This document shows, piece after piece, positions 6,750-29,635 of a DNA stretch of 39,530 nucleotides. Each line of letters opens with the position of its first letter. Positions within the stretch are counted from its first letter, which is position 1. The position numbers were made by a program, and so were the translations under genes. Source of the stretch: Bacteriovoracaceae bacterium (lineage in GTDB: Bacteria; Bdellovibrionota; Bacteriovoracia; Bacteriovoracales; Bacteriovoracaceae); assembly GCA_016786485.1 (NCBI GenBank), contig JAEUWD010000060.1, forward strand, positions 1 to 39,530. The letters are read 5' to 3'. The notes under the pieces are model-generated. The model saw only the letters and a list, made by a program, of their open reading frames with translations. It was not told the origin of the DNA and did not search any database.

Positions 6750-6872
6750 ATGCCTTGGCGCCGTGCGTGGCCTTATGCTAAGGTTCCACAGATTAAAAGT
6801 TATCGAAAGATCATCAAAAAACTCGCTCCTACGCGATTATGTATAGGGGCTAATATAACCAGGAGGAACTAA
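6750..6872 (+). other. Possible 40-aa basic leader peptide upstream of the S6-S18 gene
   Basis: An ATG at 6750 opens a 40-codon frame rich in Arg and Lys whose TAA (6870-6872) shares its last base with the ATG of the S6-S18 gene. No clear Shine-Dalgarno precedes it. It spans the predicted leader hairpin at 6753-6783. The one-base stop/start overlap could couple translation, but a chance frame is at least as likely. Confidence 0.25.
6753..6783 (+). promoter_or_regulatory. Leader hairpin before the S6-S18 gene, candidate autoregulatory element
   Basis: CCTTGGC (6753-6759) pairs with GCTAAGG (6777-6783) with one G-U pair. Inside it GCC (6760-6762) pairs with GGC (6769-6771), leaving loop GTGCGT and a one-sided bulge CTTAT. 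Many bacteria carry an S6:S18-binding leader with a CCG-containing bulged stem before rpsF. This element lies in the right place and contains CCG at 6761-6763, though not clearly in the canonical bulge. Assignment is tentative. Confidence 0.35.
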
Positions 6873-7477
6873 TGATTTACGAGACCGCAGTAGTTGTGCG
6901 TCCAGATGCAGGAGACGATGTCCTTGCAAAACTCAAAGCTAACATTAAAGATGCTATCACAAGCACCAACGGCGAATTGCTAGTTGAAGATGATTGGGGT
7001 GTAAAAACTTTTGCACAACCAATGGAAGGTGGAAAAACTCAGGGCCGTTACGTGTACTTCATGTACAAGTCAAATGGTCAAGGTAACACTGAGATTGAGC
7101 GTCGTTACAGAATCAGTGAAGAAGTTATGCGTTTCATCGTAGTTAACTTAGGAACTGATGCTGAAGCAGAAAAAATTAAAAAAGATTACAAGAATCCAAA
7201 CTCTCGTTCAGCTGATGCTGACCGCGGTCGTTTTGATGCTGAAAAAGAAAAGAAACTTTTCGCTAAGAGAAGTTCTTGTTGGTTCTCAGCTAAGAAAACT
7301 CAACCAGATTGGAAAGATCCAAACACTTACTCATGGTTAGTAAATGAATTTGGTAAAATCTCTCCAGCAAGAGTAACTGGCCTTCGTCCAAAATTCCAAC
7401 GTTCAGCGACTCGCGCGATTAAGCAAGCTCGCACGATGGGATTAATTAGTTTCTTATCTGGTCAAATTGCAAGATAA
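6872..7477 (+). CDS. rpsF-rpsR: Fused ribosomal proteins S6 and S18
   Basis: One uninterrupted 201-codon frame encodes both proteins. Residues 1 to about 97 are S6 (IYETAVVVRPDAG start, YRISEEVMRFIVVNL end). Residues 98-127 are a charged Asp/Lys/Arg linker. Residues 128 to about 196 are S18: KRSSCWFSA, the D-W-K-D turn, NEFGKISPARVTGLRPKFQR and AIKQARTMGLISF. There is no stop and no ATG, GTG or TTG start with a ribosome site between them. In other bacteria rpsF and rpsR are separate genes whose products form a heterodimer on the 30S platform, so a fused dimer is structurally plausible. An AGGAGG site lies at 6861-6866. It leads the operon with the DUF2232 and L9 genes. Confidence 0.9.
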   Translation: MIYETAVVVRPDAGDDVLAKLKANIKDAITSTNGELLVEDDWGVKTFAQPMEGGKTQGRYVYFMYKSNGQGNTEIERRYRISEEVMRFIVVNLGTDAEAEKIKKDYKNPNSRSADADRGRFDAEKEKKLFAKRSSCWFSAKKTQPDWKDPNTYSWLVNEFGKISPARVTGLRPKFQRSATRAIKQARTMGLISFLSGQIAR

Positions 7478-7488
7478 GGTAAAAAACG

Positions 7489-8472
7489 ATGGATAAGACA
7501 ACTCAAAATTTAGAGACAAATCCGATGAGACTCCTCATGTTGGGAATCTCGTCTATGGTTTTGACTTTTAGTGTTGTGATGGCCGTCTTCGCTCCATTTC
7601 CAATTTCATTGGCTTCAGTTTTATACGGTCGCCGATTTGGATATGTGCTGGGTGGTTTATGTCTTGTTATCTTTTTTGTTTTATCAGTATTTGTCTTTCA
7701 AAAAATGACTCCGTTCATTCTTTATTCAACGGCTTTAGTGGTCTCAATCGCTATTACGGAAATCGTAGTAAGAGGTTTAGCGCCAGTTAAGAGTATGGTG
7801 AAGTTTGGATTAGGACTTATTTTATTGATTGCCGGATGTGGATACTATGTGGTGAAGAAAGCTGACATCTCAGTTAATGACATGGTTTTAGCTGAAGTTA
7901 AAAAAGGTGCTGCTCAAATTGAAGAACAAAAAGAGCAGTTAATAGGTGATGGAAATTCTGAAGAGACGATGCAATTAATGTCTCTTTTGTCGCAACCTCA
8001 GTTGCTTACAAAAGAAATTATTAAGTCGGCCCCTGCGTATTTTTTTATCTCAATCTTTTTTATTCTTTGGTCGAATCTGTTTCTCGTTCTTAAAAGTCGA
8101 AGAATTTTATACTTGGGCCGTAAATTTCGTTATACGGAATTATCGTTACTCAACTTTAAAGTTCCGGAAAATGTAGTTTATTTATTAATTGTTTCTCTCT
8201 GTTTGGCGATTTGGGGTAACGAAATTATTCCAGATAAAACTTGGCCAGCGGATGTTGGGATGACACTTATTAAATGTATGGGGCTTTTTTATTTCTTCCA
8301 AGGCTTTGGCATTTACGTCAAGTTTTTGGATTTTACTAAAGTTTCAGGAATCTTCAGAACTTTTATTGTGATGATTACAGTTTTAATGGCTTCATGGTTA
8401 TTAGCTCTCGTTGGTCTTTTTGATCTTTGGTTTGATTTTAGAAATATGTTTAAAGTAAAAAAAGAAAAATAA
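7489..8472 (+). CDS. DUF2232 (YybS-like) membrane protein
   Basis: A 327-aa polytopic inner-membrane protein. Hydrophobic segments lie in the N-terminal 110 residues, then a soluble acidic loop (about 125-170), then further segments to the C-terminus. It matches the DUF2232/YybS type by size, topology and, above all, by position between the S18 and L9 genes, a placement conserved in several phyla. Function is unknown; links to S6/S18/L9 expression are only contextual. It begins 11 bases after the fusion gene stop and ends 15 bases before rplI, so the three are one operon. Confidence 0.8.
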   Translation: MDKTTQNLETNPMRLLMLGISSMVLTFSVVMAVFAPFPISLASVLYGRRFGYVLGGLCLVIFFVLSVFVFQKMTPFILYSTALVVSIAITEIVVRGLAPVKSMVKFGLGLILLIAGCGYYVVKKADISVNDMVLAEVKKGAAQIEEQKEQLIGDGNSEETMQLMSLLSQPQLLTKEIIKSAPAYFFISIFFILWSNLFLVLKSRRILYLGRKFRYTELSLLNFKVPENVVYLLIVSLCLAIWGNEIIPDKTWPADVGMTLIKCMGLFYFFQGFGIYVKFLDFTKVSGIFRTFIVMITVLMASWLLALVGLFDLWFDFRNMFKVKKEK

Positions 8473-9149: not shown

Positions 9150-10487
9150 ATGGAAAAAACAAGAGAAATGCCGCATGACCTTTTGGCCGAGAAATCGCTC
9201 TTAGGTTGTCTTTTAATTGATAGTAGCGCCATTGATGAAATCAGTGACGTGAGCTTGATTAAAGAAGATTTCTATCATCCGCAATACGCGCTGATTTATT
9301 CAGCGATTCGTGACCTGCATTTTCAGTCTCAGCCTATCGATCTCGTTACCGTTTGTTCAAAGTTAAATGACATCGGCAAAATCGAAGTGGTCGGTGGCCA
9401 GACAGCGATTCTCAATTTGATCGAAGACCAAGCTTCATCGGCCAACGTTTATCACTACGCTAAGGTCATTAAAGATAAATCCATTATTCGCGAAATTATT
9501 AAGACCGCTGGACGTGTGGTTGAAGGTGCGCATAATTTTTCGGGTGATATCACAGAATATATTAACGAAGTTGAATCAAGTTTTTTTAAATTAACCAGCC
9601 AAACGAAAAACGAAGGTTTAAAAGACCTGAAAAATATTTTGAAGCTTAATTTAAAATCACTTGAAAACGCTGCTCGTAATAAGGGCGAAGTTTCAGGTTT
9701 ACCAACCGGCTTTAAAGAAATTGATAAACGTTTACTTGGCTTACAGCCAGGTCAGCTAGTTGTCTTAGCTGCTCGTCCAGCGATGGGTAAAACGGCGCTC
9801 GCTTTAAACTTTGCGGTTAACGCTGCCAAGAGTTCGGCCCTTCCTGTTGCTATTTTCTCTCTCGAGATGTTGTCGCCGGAATTAGGGATGAGAATTCTCT
9901 CATCTGAAGCGGCGATCGATGCGACTCGTTTGAAAACCAAAAATTTTTTAGATTCGGATTTAAAAAATATTGCGACTGCTGTGCAAGAGTTAACCAATCT
10001 GCCACTTTTTATTAACGATGCTGCCGATATTACTCTGGTTGATATTCGCAGTCAGTGTCGTAAAATTAAAATTGAGCAAGGTTTAGCTTTAGTTGTTATC
10101 GACTACCTTCAGTTAATGCAATCACATACGAATTCTATTCAGCGTGAACAACAGATTTCTGAAATTTCACGAGGCTTAAAAAACCTCGCCAAAGAATTGG
10201 AATGTCCGGTTGTCGCACTCTCTCAGTTAAATCGTGCGGTTGAATCTCGTGTAGATAAACGTCCTATGGTTTCTGATTTGCGTGAATCAGGTTCGATTGA
10301 ACAGGATGCGGATATCGTCATGCTGGTTTATCGTGATGAAGTTTATAATAAAGAAACCAAAGATAAAGGTATCGCCGAAATCATCGTGGGTAAAAACCGT
10401 TCGGGTGAAACTGGTACCGTTAAATTAGCTTGGATTGGTTCTCAAACGAAGTTTGCTAACCTGGCCTATGAACCAAATAATTATTAA
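9150..10487 (+). CDS. dnaB: Replicative DNA helicase DnaB
   Basis: A 445-aa protein of normal length. The N-terminal primase-interacting domain (about 7-105, MPHDLLAEKSLLGCLL) is followed by the RecA-like motor: Walker A ARPAMGKT (208-215), the SLEM motif (237-240), Walker B VVIDYLQLM (315-323), SQLNRAVE and the VGKNRSGETG finger region near 413-422. No intein is present. It unwinds DNA ahead of the replication fork as a hexamer. The upstream Shine-Dalgarno is weak (GGGAAC). The TAA overlaps the next ATG by one base, coupling it to pabB. Position after rplI is the classic arrangement. Confidence 0.97.
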   Translation: MEKTREMPHDLLAEKSLLGCLLIDSSAIDEISDVSLIKEDFYHPQYALIYSAIRDLHFQSQPIDLVTVCSKLNDIGKIEVVGGQTAILNLIEDQASSANVYHYAKVIKDKSIIREIIKTAGRVVEGAHNFSGDITEYINEVESSFFKLTSQTKNEGLKDLKNILKLNLKSLENAARNKGEVSGLPTGFKEIDKRLLGLQPGQLVVLAARPAMGKTALALNFAVNAAKSSALPVAIFSLEMLSPELGMRILSSEAAIDATRLKTKNFLDSDLKNIATAVQELTNLPLFINDAADITLVDIRSQCRKIKIEQGLALVVIDYLQLMQSHTNSIQREQQISEISRGLKNLAKELECPVVALSQLNRAVESRVDKRPMVSDLRESGSIEQDADIVMLVYRDEVYNKETKDKGIAEIIVGKNRSGETGTVKLAWIGSQTKFANLAYEPNNY

Positions 10488-24749: not shown

Positions 24750-25183
24750 AAATTTAATATAAAGGTGACGGGACCGTCATTCACGAGCGAAACCTGCATG
24801 TTTTCGCCAAAAATACCTTTTTCGACTTTTAATTCACGTTCCTCAAGCTTCTTATTGAAGGTATAGTACATAAGCTTTGCTTCTTGTGGTGGCATGGATT
24901 TATCAAAACTTGGGCGATGACCTTTCTTTCCATCCCAGCTGAGAGTGAACTGGCTTACCGATAAAATAGCGCCATTGATTTGTTTCACGTTAAGATTCAT
25001 CTTGCCCGCTTCATCTTCAAAAATACGCAGGTTAACCACTTTTTCGATTGATTCATCGACCGCCGCCATGGTGTCACCGGCTTCAAAACACACGAACAGG
25101 AGAAGGCCTTGTTGAATTTCGCCCGTCGTTTTTCCGTTAACTGTTACCGACGCGCTTTTGACCCTTTGTAAAACCAATTTCAT
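24746..25183 (-). CDS. dtd: D-aminoacyl-tRNA deacylase
   Basis: A 145-aa protein of exactly the family size. It starts MKLVLQRVKSASVTVNG, has the SQFTL motif (about 87-91) and ends with NDGPVTF, whose Gly-Pro forms the cross-subunit chiral filter. It removes D-amino acids and glycine mischarged on tRNAs. It is the last gene of the minus-strand operon with the ChaN-like and 944-aa genes, sharing a base with the upstream stop. Confidence 0.95.
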   Translation of the reverse strand: MKLVLQRVKSASVTVNGKTTGEIQQGLLLFVCFEAGDTMAAVDESIEKVVNLRIFEDEAGKMNLNVKQINGAILSVSQFTLSWDGKKGHRPSFDKSMPPQEAKLMYYTFNKKLEERELKVEKGIFGENMQVSLVNDGPVTFILNF

Positions 25184-26778
25184 TAAAAATACCTTTTGCT
25201 CAGTTCTTGGTAGTTCAGTTTATCGTTGGCCAAATTCTTCAGTTGGTAGAAAGCGGCTTCGTCCAGGTTGGAGTTATAGAAGTATTTCGCGAAAAAGTCT
25301 GCCCCAATTTTCAAATCTTCATTAGAAATTTTGATATGCAAATGTTCACCAATGAGCGCTCCCATTTTTTTTGCCATTTTATAAACTTGAAAGAAAGAGC
25401 GTTTTTCAAAGAAAGAGGTCTCAAACTTTTTGGAATCAATCAGCTTCAATAGATTTACTGCGTGTCTATCTTCTTCTGCAATTTTCTTGAAATCCGAATA
25501 GAGATTACACTTGCGATGAGGGTTTAAGAATTTTGAAAGCAGATAACTATGAGTGAACAAAAAAACAAAGTAGGTAAAGAACTGCGGTTTGGTTTTAAAC
25601 AGTTCTTTTGATTGATGAAGTTTGTTCACTTGTTCAGAACATAAAAAATAGATGTGTACGAGCGCGAGCGAAATCATTCTGTTGGCCGAATAGTTTGAGC
25701 AATAATAAGAATTCGTCATCGGTAAACGTAAAGATTCGTTTTTCTCAATACACTCTTTCACAAAACTCTGCATGGTCTTCAGTGGTAGTTTGGAAGTTTT
25801 ATTTTTTAATTGCTTTATCGACTTATGATCAAAGAGATTAAAATCATCCAAAGTTTGTGTCAGCTGTTGGGGCTTCAAAAGATCCAAGTAAATCTTGATC
25901 ACTTGCAGGAAGTTATCTTGGGTTTCATTATTAAAAGTTTTGAGGCCATTTTCTAGCGTGTATTCATGCAGGTCAAATTCAGGATCATCAGCATAGTTTT
26001 CGTACCAATAAACTTGACTTTCATATTTAAGCCATGGGGGAGAGTTGTTAAGGCAAAACTCATTAGCATTATATTTAAAAATTTGTTCACCAATGTGGAG
26101 TGTGGCCAGAAAAACTTCATCCAGGTTTTGGTGAATAATTGAATGACGTGTTTTAGAACAATTCATTTTCACTAATTGTGGAATTTTATTTGGCAAGATA
26201 TGGAGTTCACCAAAAAGCACAAGCAATGGCTTGGTTGGAAACTTTTTCATTTGTGTCGCTATTAGCGCTGCTGCTTTCTTATCTCGCGCGCTGAGTTTTC
26301 CTTCAGAGTTGAGAGCGACAACTGAAACTTTATTTTTTTTGCAGAAATCAAAAATTTGACGGTAATGGCTCCAAGGAAAACGCCAAGACTCGGTGTAATT
26401 AATTTCATCTAAAAATTCCATCTCGGTAATATGTCCGGCAAGAAAATGATCCAGTGTTTTTTGTTTGTTGGCTTGAATGAATTCGATGCCGATAGTAAGT
26501 CCCGCACGATTCATATTTAAAATCTGTGCGATTCTTAAAACATTTTTAATATTGTGATCAAATGTGTGGAAGTCACCGATATAGACGACGTTAGAACAAA
26601 TCAAACTCTGAATAAATTCGTCTTCAGCACAAATTTGAAAATTGCGTGAATTATAATAACTTTGATCTTTGCGATAATTTTTTAATTCTTTGCTGAGTTG
26701 GGTTTCATTATCAAGTACGCGAGTCTTTAGATATTTTAATAAATTGACCTGAATGTCGCTGATTTGATTTTCCAACAT
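25183..26778 (-). CDS. ChaN-like (haem-binding uptake superfamily) protein
   Basis: A 531-aa protein. Residues about 60-260 match the ChaN/PF04187 pattern: VVYIGDFHTFDHN, IGIEFIQANKQKTLDHFLAG, WRFPWSHYRQIFDFCKKN, VALNSEGKLSARDKKAA and LVLFGELHILP. ChaN proteins are usually iron-regulated lipoproteins that bind haem. This one has no signal peptide or lipobox, so it appears cytoplasmic. It also has an extra C-terminal region of some 270 residues, rich in aromatic and helical segments, that I cannot assign. It follows the 944-aa gene by 22 bases. Confidence 0.7.
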   Translation of the reverse strand: MLENQISDIQVNLLKYLKTRVLDNETQLSKELKNYRKDQSYYNSRNFQICAEDEFIQSLICSNVVYIGDFHTFDHNIKNVLRIAQILNMNRAGLTIGIEFIQANKQKTLDHFLAGHITEMEFLDEINYTESWRFPWSHYRQIFDFCKKNKVSVVALNSEGKLSARDKKAAALIATQMKKFPTKPLLVLFGELHILPNKIPQLVKMNCSKTRHSIIHQNLDEVFLATLHIGEQIFKYNANEFCLNNSPPWLKYESQVYWYENYADDPEFDLHEYTLENGLKTFNNETQDNFLQVIKIYLDLLKPQQLTQTLDDFNLFDHKSIKQLKNKTSKLPLKTMQSFVKECIEKNESLRLPMTNSYYCSNYSANRMISLALVHIYFLCSEQVNKLHQSKELFKTKPQFFTYFVFLFTHSYLLSKFLNPHRKCNLYSDFKKIAEEDRHAVNLLKLIDSKKFETSFFEKRSFFQVYKMAKKMGALIGEHLHIKISNEDLKIGADFFAKYFYNSNLDEAAFYQLKNLANDKLNYQELSKRYF

Positions 26779-26800: not shown

Positions 26801-29635
26801 CTAATCTAGGGAGATACTTTGATTAAGAAGTTGAGAAAAAAGTTGAGAAACTTTATCATGTAATTTGATTAGTTCGTTACGAGAATTTTTCACCAGATTT
26901 AATTGCTGGCTTAAGGCGCTATGCTCCGGCACTAAAAGTGATTTAAGAATATATGAAACCGGCTTGTTCATAACAAATTGGAGAAGATAGTTTAAGAACT
27001 TCATTAACAGGTTTGGCCCAAAAATCTTGACCACACATTCTTCACCACTAAAGAATTCAAGACCATTGAGAACCTGCCCCTGAATCACATGTTCTGAAGT
27101 TTTAATCATGGTTAAGTTTCTATCCAGCATCGATTTATCTTTTTGGCAGAAATCAATAAAGATTTGTTCGTTCTGCTCCAGCAATGGTTTTAGTTTTAAC
27201 TTAGGTAGTGAATTTCTAAATTCTTGTGAAGCAAAAATATTGTGTAAGTCATTCGTGTCGAGTGAGCTCTTGCTTAAAGCTTCTTGTGTATTATGTTTTA
27301 AATAGGCAAGCACACTTAGTACGGCATTTGGATAATTTTTATAAATAGTCATCAGCAAAATTTGTGAAGCAGTTAAATGCTGGCAAATATTTTTCGCTGA
27401 ATCATTATTAATTTCGTTAGCGGGAACGGAGAAATATTTGAAAGCTTCTGTCACATGCACTGGAGCTTCTTTATGTTGCGCTAATAATTTTGGAACTAGT
27501 AGCGATGAAATTTTAGCTTTAGCTTTTTTCATCTGGCCCATGAAGGTTAATTCAATAATTTCATGACCAAGCTGTGATTGGAAAAATTCACGTAACAAAT
27601 TAATATTAAGATTTGGAATTTTTGGTCTTAAACCAAAATATTCGCATTGAGTAATTCCGCATTCTTGGATTTTTGCTTGTAGTGTTGTCGCACTTGAAAT
27701 CTCGAGCTTAATCTTATTGCTACGGCCATCAATCAAAAGTAGGTAAGGGAATTTAGGCGTATGTGGAGCAAGTTCACCTATGTCCAATGCACCATTGCCC
27801 ATGTAAGCATCCAATGTTTCAACTGGATAAATATTAAAGAAAAGATCGAGTGAGAAAGTTGAATTGAGTAAATTCTTAAAGAATGATGGATGTGTAATTT
27901 TATTCTGGTCTTTATTGCTAGAGTGAACCAGGCGTCCGTCGATAACTGCATCTTGATAAAATTCTAATGAGAAATTATTCGCGAAATCTTTGCGATAAAT
28001 AACTGGAACGTTAAAAAGGTTTTTGCGATAAAAACTTTGCAATTCATCGGTAATAGTTGAAAACTTTTGAAAAGTTGAAAGTTCGGCATTGATACGGAAA
28101 CAAAGACCGATATTGTTACTGCTTGAGTGGTTTTTCTTTGAGAAAATGAAAATATAATTGGGGACTTCGCCTTTGCCTTTCACATCTTCTAGTTCAAACA
28201 TCCCTTCAAAGTTTAATGTTTGAAGAAGTTGATCGATTTTTTCTTTTTGTGATGGAATAAAAAGATTTTTATTACTCATCACGATCATTTTCCCACCATC
28301 CTTCAACGATTCGGATTCCGTGTTGATTTGATGATAGATATGAAAGTAAGGATTGTTTTTTGGAGTATTGGAAATATTGAGCACCACGCGGTCGTAGCTT
28401 GATTGTGTGTCCTGCGTATCTTCTAAAAAACTTGGTTGAACTTGATTTTTTGTTTTGCGATTAATTAAAGAGTCTTTTGAAACATTACTTAAAAATGAAA
28501 TTAATGGATGTTGCTGAATTTTCGCGACATCGACTAAGAAGGTAATGAACTGCAATTCATTAAAGAGTTTTAAATAAAGACCTGTGCTGAAATCATTGCC
28601 TTTGAAATCCGGGCAAATGATTTGTTTCCACTTTATTTCTTTATTATTGTTCTGAGCTAACCAATGTGAATTGGCGATACACTCAAGATAATCACCAGTG
28701 TATTTGGTGCTAATGATTTCTAGACCACATTGAGCGCCATTTACTGCGGTTGGGAGTTGGTGGTGATTGGCGCAATGTAACCAAGTTGGATAATTAATAA
28801 TTAATGAATTTAAAAACAAACCAAAATTTCGATGAGAAAGAGTGTGAGAATAGTGGTTTTCGTTCTTAAATTGCTGAGACTGTTCTGATGTTTTTTTGAT
28901 GATTTCTGAGATGGTAATTTCGGTTGAGATTTCTGATAATTTCGCTAATTCATCGGCCAAGTGATGCTCTGGACGGTACCAACTGTAAATATTTGTTTCA
29001 AGCGCTTTCGAACGTAGTTCAGTCGAGCCACCTTTCTTAAAAATAGATGTGATTAAGCTGGTGGGATTAAAAAAGTTTTTTGTTTCGAGTTTCTGATTAT
29101 TTTCTAAAGCAATTTTTGAAATAAAACGTAACTTTAAAAAATAAATAATCGCCACTCTTTGAGCGTATGCATGAATGAAGTGAGCGAGAGTTTGATCGTA
29201 TTCTGATTTTTCTAATTTTACTTCGTTCCAAAATTTTTGATGGCCATCAATCGCGTGAAAATTTAACGATTGCTCAGCAAGGAAAGAAACAAATTCTTGA
29301 TAGATTTGAATCTGTAAGGTGCGATTAAACTGATTGGAAAGAAATTGATTTTTAACATCATCACAAATTTTTTCAAACAGATTTTCAAAGCGTAAATAGG
29401 TTTTAGATTTAAGCGATTCACCGGTCCAGCCAGGAGTTAAAAAGCTCGCAGGATTAAATTCAAGGCCCGAAGGAATCGAAGTTTTAAATGCTGGAGTAAA
29501 GTTAGGAAATAATTCTGAGGGACAAAAATTATTTGTCGATGTAGTCGTAAATACATCCCTGTTCACTACTGGTGTAGTAACAGTTTGCGCTTCATTTTTC
29601 AGCCAATTCTTGGCGTAGAAGGGCGAGTTATTCAA
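26801..29635 (-). CDS. Large protein with a degenerate N6-methyltransferase-like core
   Basis: A 944-aa protein starting at TTG, with AGGAG 7 bases upstream. Residues about 414-500 follow the late part of the N6-adenine methyltransferase fold: YDRVVLNISNTP in place of the D-x-x-x-x-N-P-P-F/Y strand, then HIYHQI, LKDGGKMIVMSN, LLQTLNFEGMFELED and VPNYIFIFSKK. The catalytic NPPY is absent and I find no SAM-binding G-x-G. The flanks (1-410 and 500-944) are unknown, mostly helical and Asn/Gln/Lys-rich. It heads the operon with the ChaN-like protein and Dtd. A conserved protein without methyltransferase activity is the likeliest reading. Confidence 0.5.
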   Translation of the reverse strand: MNNSPFYAKNWLKNEAQTVTTPVVNRDVFTTTSTNNFCPSELFPNFTPAFKTSIPSGLEFNPASFLTPGWTGESLKSKTYLRFENLFEKICDDVKNQFLSNQFNRTLQIQIYQEFVSFLAEQSLNFHAIDGHQKFWNEVKLEKSEYDQTLAHFIHAYAQRVAIIYFLKLRFISKIALENNQKLETKNFFNPTSLITSIFKKGGSTELRSKALETNIYSWYRPEHHLADELAKLSEISTEITISEIIKKTSEQSQQFKNENHYSHTLSHRNFGLFLNSLIINYPTWLHCANHHQLPTAVNGAQCGLEIISTKYTGDYLECIANSHWLAQNNNKEIKWKQIICPDFKGNDFSTGLYLKLFNELQFITFLVDVAKIQQHPLISFLSNVSKDSLINRKTKNQVQPSFLEDTQDTQSSYDRVVLNISNTPKNNPYFHIYHQINTESESLKDGGKMIVMSNKNLFIPSQKEKIDQLLQTLNFEGMFELEDVKGKGEVPNYIFIFSKKNHSSSNNIGLCFRINAELSTFQKFSTITDELQSFYRKNLFNVPVIYRKDFANNFSLEFYQDAVIDGRLVHSSNKDQNKITHPSFFKNLLNSTFSLDLFFNIYPVETLDAYMGNGALDIGELAPHTPKFPYLLLIDGRSNKIKLEISSATTLQAKIQECGITQCEYFGLRPKIPNLNINLLREFFQSQLGHEIIELTFMGQMKKAKAKISSLLVPKLLAQHKEAPVHVTEAFKYFSVPANEINNDSAKNICQHLTASQILLMTIYKNYPNAVLSVLAYLKHNTQEALSKSSLDTNDLHNIFASQEFRNSLPKLKLKPLLEQNEQIFIDFCQKDKSMLDRNLTMIKTSEHVIQGQVLNGLEFFSGEECVVKIFGPNLLMKFLNYLLQFVMNKPVSYILKSLLVPEHSALSQQLNLVKNSRNELIKLHDKVSQLFSQLLNQSISLD

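Follow-up and report, generated by a model that had tools for sequence, protein, structure and literature searches.

Fusion of the genes for ribosomal proteins S6 and S18 in Bacteriovoracia

In bacteria, ribosomal proteins rank among the best-conserved single-gene units, and the fusions of ubiquitin to ribosomal proteins that occur in eukaryotes are cleaved. In E. coli, S6 and S18 are two proteins encoded by rpsF-priB-rpsR-rplI, with priB lying between them, and the RpsF_leader of the mRNA is bound by S6:S18 with repression of translation, as demonstrated in both E. coli and B. subtilis (PMC4647458). Ribosomal proteins that form part of a longer chain are exemplified in bacteria by L9 fused to a signalling protein (NF011110, PRK14538) and in eukaryotes by UBA52 and RPS27a, in which the ribosomal protein is the C-terminal part of a fusion precursor whose partner is ubiquitin (PMC10296562). 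Loss of the cysteine ligands of S18 is known from the zinc-independent (C−) bS18 of M. smegmatis, an extra paralogue found beside the C+ form (PMC9976891).

The locus described here lies in a stretch of 39,530 nucleotides (hereafter the window) from a Bacteriovoracaceae bacterium. It shares with E. coli both domains, their gene order, rplI downstream and a leader at the Shine-Dalgarno sequence, but encodes S6 and S18 as one protein with no gene between them. Whereas the partner of the L9 fusion is non-ribosomal and that of UBA52 and RPS27a is ubiquitin, both partners here are neighbours in the 30S subunit, and unlike in M. smegmatis the C− form is the only S18 and resides within the fusion. 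The preliminary description of the locus knew of no described S6–S18 fusion; we likewise found none in the literature searched, and two genomics studies of the group mention neither S6 nor S18.

The fused gene and its surroundings

One stop-free frame of 201 codons holds S6 and S18, both complete as originally described (Table 1). Residues 3–91 of the product match PF01250 (70.4 bits, E 1.5e-19, cut-off 27) and residues 141–192 match PF01084 (60.6 bits, E 1.6e-16, cut-off 21), while the NCBIfam equivalog models TIGR00166 and TIGR00165 score 52.1 bits (cut-off 42.9) and 55 bits (residues 131–195, cut-off 38.75) respectively, giving whole-domain matches above curated cut-offs for both bS6 and bS18. 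The fused product has a calculated mass of 22.8 kDa and consists of an acidic S6 part (pI 5.1) and a strongly basic S18 part (pI 11.4) on either side of a linker that is close to neutral. Between the domains there is no stop codon and, from residue 93 to Cys136, no in-frame ATG, GTG or TTG, in agreement with the preliminary description; the linker, which had been put at 30 residues, is longer, with 37 residues by the NCBIfam borders or 49 by the Pfam borders. The proposal that the ratio of S6 to S18 is fixed at 1:1 is supported because both come from this single frame.

Table 1. Positions in the window of the fused gene, its parts, its leader and the genes that follow.
Feature	Position	Strand	Basis and remarks
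Putative autoregulatory mRNA leader	6822..6866	+	Conserved with covariation in relatives; folds alone
Fused rpsF-rpsR (S6 + linker + S18, 201 aa)	6872..7477	+	Pfam/NCBIfam; the genome's only S6 and S18
S6 domain, residues 1–93	6872..7150	+	PF01250, TIGR00166
Linker, residues 94–130, 51% D/E/K/R	7151..7261	+	S6 tail motif DYKNP, then S18 N-extension EKEKKLF
S18 domain, residues 131–201	7262..7474	+	PF01084, TIGR00165; Cys136 kept, other two metal-site Cys absent
DUF2232 membrane protein, downstream gene	7489..8472	+	PF09991, E 9e-18
rplI, ribosomal protein L9	8488..9093	+	TIGR00158
dnaB, replicative helicase	9150..10487	+	TIGR00665

S18 is an essential protein. In the genome to which the window belongs (2.98 Mb, 67 contigs, 98% complete) S18 and S6 were each matched exactly once, both times in the fused gene, and the search for a separate rpsF or rpsR suggested in the preliminary description returned neither. 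That a second copy hides in the missing 2% of the genome is conceivable but improbable, given that better-assembled relatives likewise have a single one. Since the merged gene is the only source of S6 and S18, the ribosomes of this bacterium and of its fused relatives probably carry one long protein in place of the two of other bacteria.

The L9 encoded downstream has an acidic, Ala-rich C-terminal tail of some 50 residues past the normal domain, and is not a fusion of the NF011110 type (59.7 bits, cut-off 707). Two other genes of the window are unusual in their own right. The product encoded at 1345–2307 combines collagen-like GxY repeats, DUF7151 and a C-terminal cellulose-binding CBM_2 domain, an odd combination for a predicted lipoprotein, and a 944-residue frame with no Pfam match (26801–29635, minus strand) lies just downstream of a ChaN-like gene on the same strand (25183–26778).

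Distribution and origin of the fusion

The same fusion is present in related genomes, as the preliminary description had proposed to check: an unbroken frame over both domains occurs in 98 genomes (89 + 9) of this family (Bacteriovoracia), whose members are relatives of the predator Bacteriovorax, and these genomes represent 40 genera. Separate S6 and S18 genes are found in five genomes of the family, from four genera (G193, G250, G260, G299 and G291), and direct reading of the first three showed S18 with its own Shine-Dalgarno sequence and start. In another two (G262 and G300) the gene is broken by contig ends and looks fused. One sequence of the fused type (L057, on contig C61 of G093) carries a TAA within its linker and lacks an ATG, GTG or TTG start before S18, and this codon may represent an error, a recent change or polymorphism, or a case of rare start or readthrough; G294, the neighbour of G093 in the S6 + S18 tree, is fused without a stop. 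The survey was sampled within this phylum, where the genes are separate in 13 directly read genomes from seven other families, and individual reading of seven outgroup loci whose S6 frames are long revealed no fusion. An Aminicenantes locus (L037) taken up as a possible second fusion proved to be two overlapping genes and was rejected. Second partial S6 matches in G067 and G144 were likewise rejected as extra copies, both being at contig ends; the match in G067 duplicates the first part of that genome's fused gene and is therefore an assembly overlap.

These relatives bear directly on the origin of the frame. The genome that contains the window is incomplete and divided into 67 contigs, and a lost stop or a frameshift could have been introduced by assembly or sequencing. 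However, the fusion is uninterrupted in 98 independent genomes, where its length varies in frame and purifying selection acts on it, and this refutes an artefact, to which we assign a negligible probability. How often the fusion arose is a finer question. The family is one clade in the RpoB tree (support 100) with a poorly resolved order at its base, and free RpoB searches place the unfused genera between two fused groups, an arrangement that would fit a fusion arising more than once, or arising once and being split again in the unfused genera. A constraint that keeps all fused rows in one group nevertheless raises the likelihood slightly, by 4.3 units (p-AU 0.62), so that one clade is not rejected, and in the S6 + S18 tree 43 fused rows fall on one side of one branch with support 86, a grouping that is mildly circular in that the tree includes the Cys columns. 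The metal site of S18 also argues against repeated fusion or re-splitting: the second and third zinc-ligand cysteines are absent from all 69 fused genes aligned, with only the first retained, whereas CxxC...CxxH is intact in S18 of all five unfused relatives and in most outgroups. We therefore infer a single origin of the fusion and consider several origins, or a later separation, rather unlikely.

In the window the ligand positions read CWFSA and LRPKF, and this S18 is thus not of the zinc-binding (C+) form. As one origin is probable, the loss of the two cysteines would be one event that is associated with the fusion, with no causal link implied. The fusion itself would have arisen in one of the early Bacteriovoracia, at the usual operon position, by a short in-frame deletion between rpsF and rpsR that removed the S6 stop, the intergenic region and the S18 start and so left the linker. 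The fusion provides a clear marker for Bacteriovoracia, and automated annotation that looks for two genes may list one of them as missing or misname the product.

The linker and translation as one chain

All 69 aligned fused genes are in frame, with linkers of 38–54 residues. Across 12 close pairs dN/dS is 0.07 for the linker, 0.10 for S6 and 0.04 for S18, and the linker is under purifying selection in frame. Its composition can be read from the unfused relatives, in which the S6 tail ends in NYKSP, NYKCP or NYRSP and S18 carries the N-extension DKDRRMFSRKKSCWFC, ending in DKDRRMFSRKK before the conserved Cys: the linker of the fused genes is this S6 tail joined to this S18 N-extension. An AlphaFold2 model of the fused protein built with four sequences has a mean pLDDT of 53 and is uninformative on the S6–S18 interface.

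A linker that is charged, probably disordered and variable in length could serve as the target of a protease, and cleaved fusions of ribosomal proteins do exist in the form of the eukaryotic ubiquitin fusions (PMC10296562); the gene would then encode a polyprotein from which S6 and S18 are freed, and the ribosome would be an ordinary one. Against this, inspection of the linker alignment by eye revealed no invariant cleavage motif, and conservation within the linker is highest in the S6 tail and the S18 extension, which are shared with the unfused relatives and therefore need no protease to explain them. We give such cleavage a low probability. The frame might alternatively yield two products, the full fusion and a free S18 initiated within the linker. 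An in-frame ATG, GTG or TTG is present in the linker of 44 of the 69 fused genes, often as an ATG that precedes the conserved Cys by seven codons, and in 15 of these 44 the best upstream pairing reaches −5 kcal/mol or better. But 25 of the 69, this genome among them, have no such start, and most internal sites are weak, with a median best pairing of −3.8 kcal/mol compared with −10.3 kcal/mol for the strong Shine-Dalgarno sequence of the S6 start, where 67 of 68 starts are at −5 kcal/mol or better. A conserved second start is therefore not the rule, although it may occur in some species, and the 15 relatives with the stronger pairing could make extra free S18; as a general account of the gene, two products seem very unlikely, more so than cleavage. 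The fused polypeptide is predicted to occur intact and uncleaved in the 30S subunit.

The leader hairpin and the predicted function of the fusion

Upstream of the fused gene the leader consists of CUC, a hairpin (6825–6835 paired with 6840–6850) and a CC adjoining the Shine-Dalgarno sequence AGGAGG (6861–6866). The same layout recurs in 71 of 73 family members, in which CUC or a close variant precedes the hairpin, and a short stretch rich in A and U separates the hairpin from CC(A/G), which leads into the Shine-Dalgarno sequence. The stem has a mean of 8.4 bp against 4.9 in shuffled sequences, and reaches at least 7 bp in 87% as against 14%; at stem positions 2–8 the 68 distinct leaders use several standard pair types with pairing kept. 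These counts were made by scripts on the original sequences and not on the MAFFT alignment, which shifts the 3′ arm. The element is thus a hairpin beside the Shine-Dalgarno sequence with a conserved CC and a covarying stem, resembling the E. coli RpsF_leader, in which a hairpin likewise lies between a strand that can pair with the Shine-Dalgarno site and that site, with CC in the 3′ loop. It differs from RpsF_leader (RF02893) in being shorter and of other sequence, and is not recognized by this Rfam model, which found nothing in the window with the E-value limit at 5 or 10 and nothing in 20 loci at the gathering threshold, while the E. coli control scored 110 bits. A similar element is carried by the unfused G193, and the leader therefore probably predates the fusion. 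By analogy with the S6:S18 complex of E. coli, the fused protein probably represses its own mRNA at this hairpin.

In the reading that we favour, with a probability of about 0.8, the deletion described above created the gene, which is the one source of S6 and S18; a single product from one start would supply both, the two domains would pair as S6:S18 usually does but within one chain, joined by the flexible charged linker, the protein would enter the 30S platform intact as one protein, and it would probably repress its own synthesis. A wider formulation, to which we lean with less assurance, is that the merger is permanent and lineage-wide, leaving a 30S subunit with one protein fewer, an intramolecular heterodimer without its zinc site and a self-repressor that acts through a reshaped leader. 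The fused protein would offer a covalent S6:S18 for studies of assembly and autoregulation, and a fusion throughout a lineage is a natural experiment on the need for S6:S18 dimerization, for free termini and for the modifications by RimI and RimK.

The preliminary description had proposed that RimI could not acetylate the S18 N-terminus nor RimK glutamylate the S6 C-terminus. Neither terminus is free in the fusion; the inference is only partly safe, however, because the genome still encodes matches to both enzymes, RimK at the equivalog level (332.8 bits, cut-off 331; L044, contig C8, 16642–17490) and a RimI-like protein at 89.7 (cut-off 86.4). RimK exceeds its cut-off in 34 of the 90 genomes of the family, and the four unfused genomes searched (G193, G250, G260 and G299) gave no match to it. 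Since the two enzymes persist despite the lost termini, they presumably have other substrates. Among the other small-subunit proteins of this genome, bS21 is encoded by two genes (L187, contig C54; L188, contig C11), both above the Pfam cut-off.
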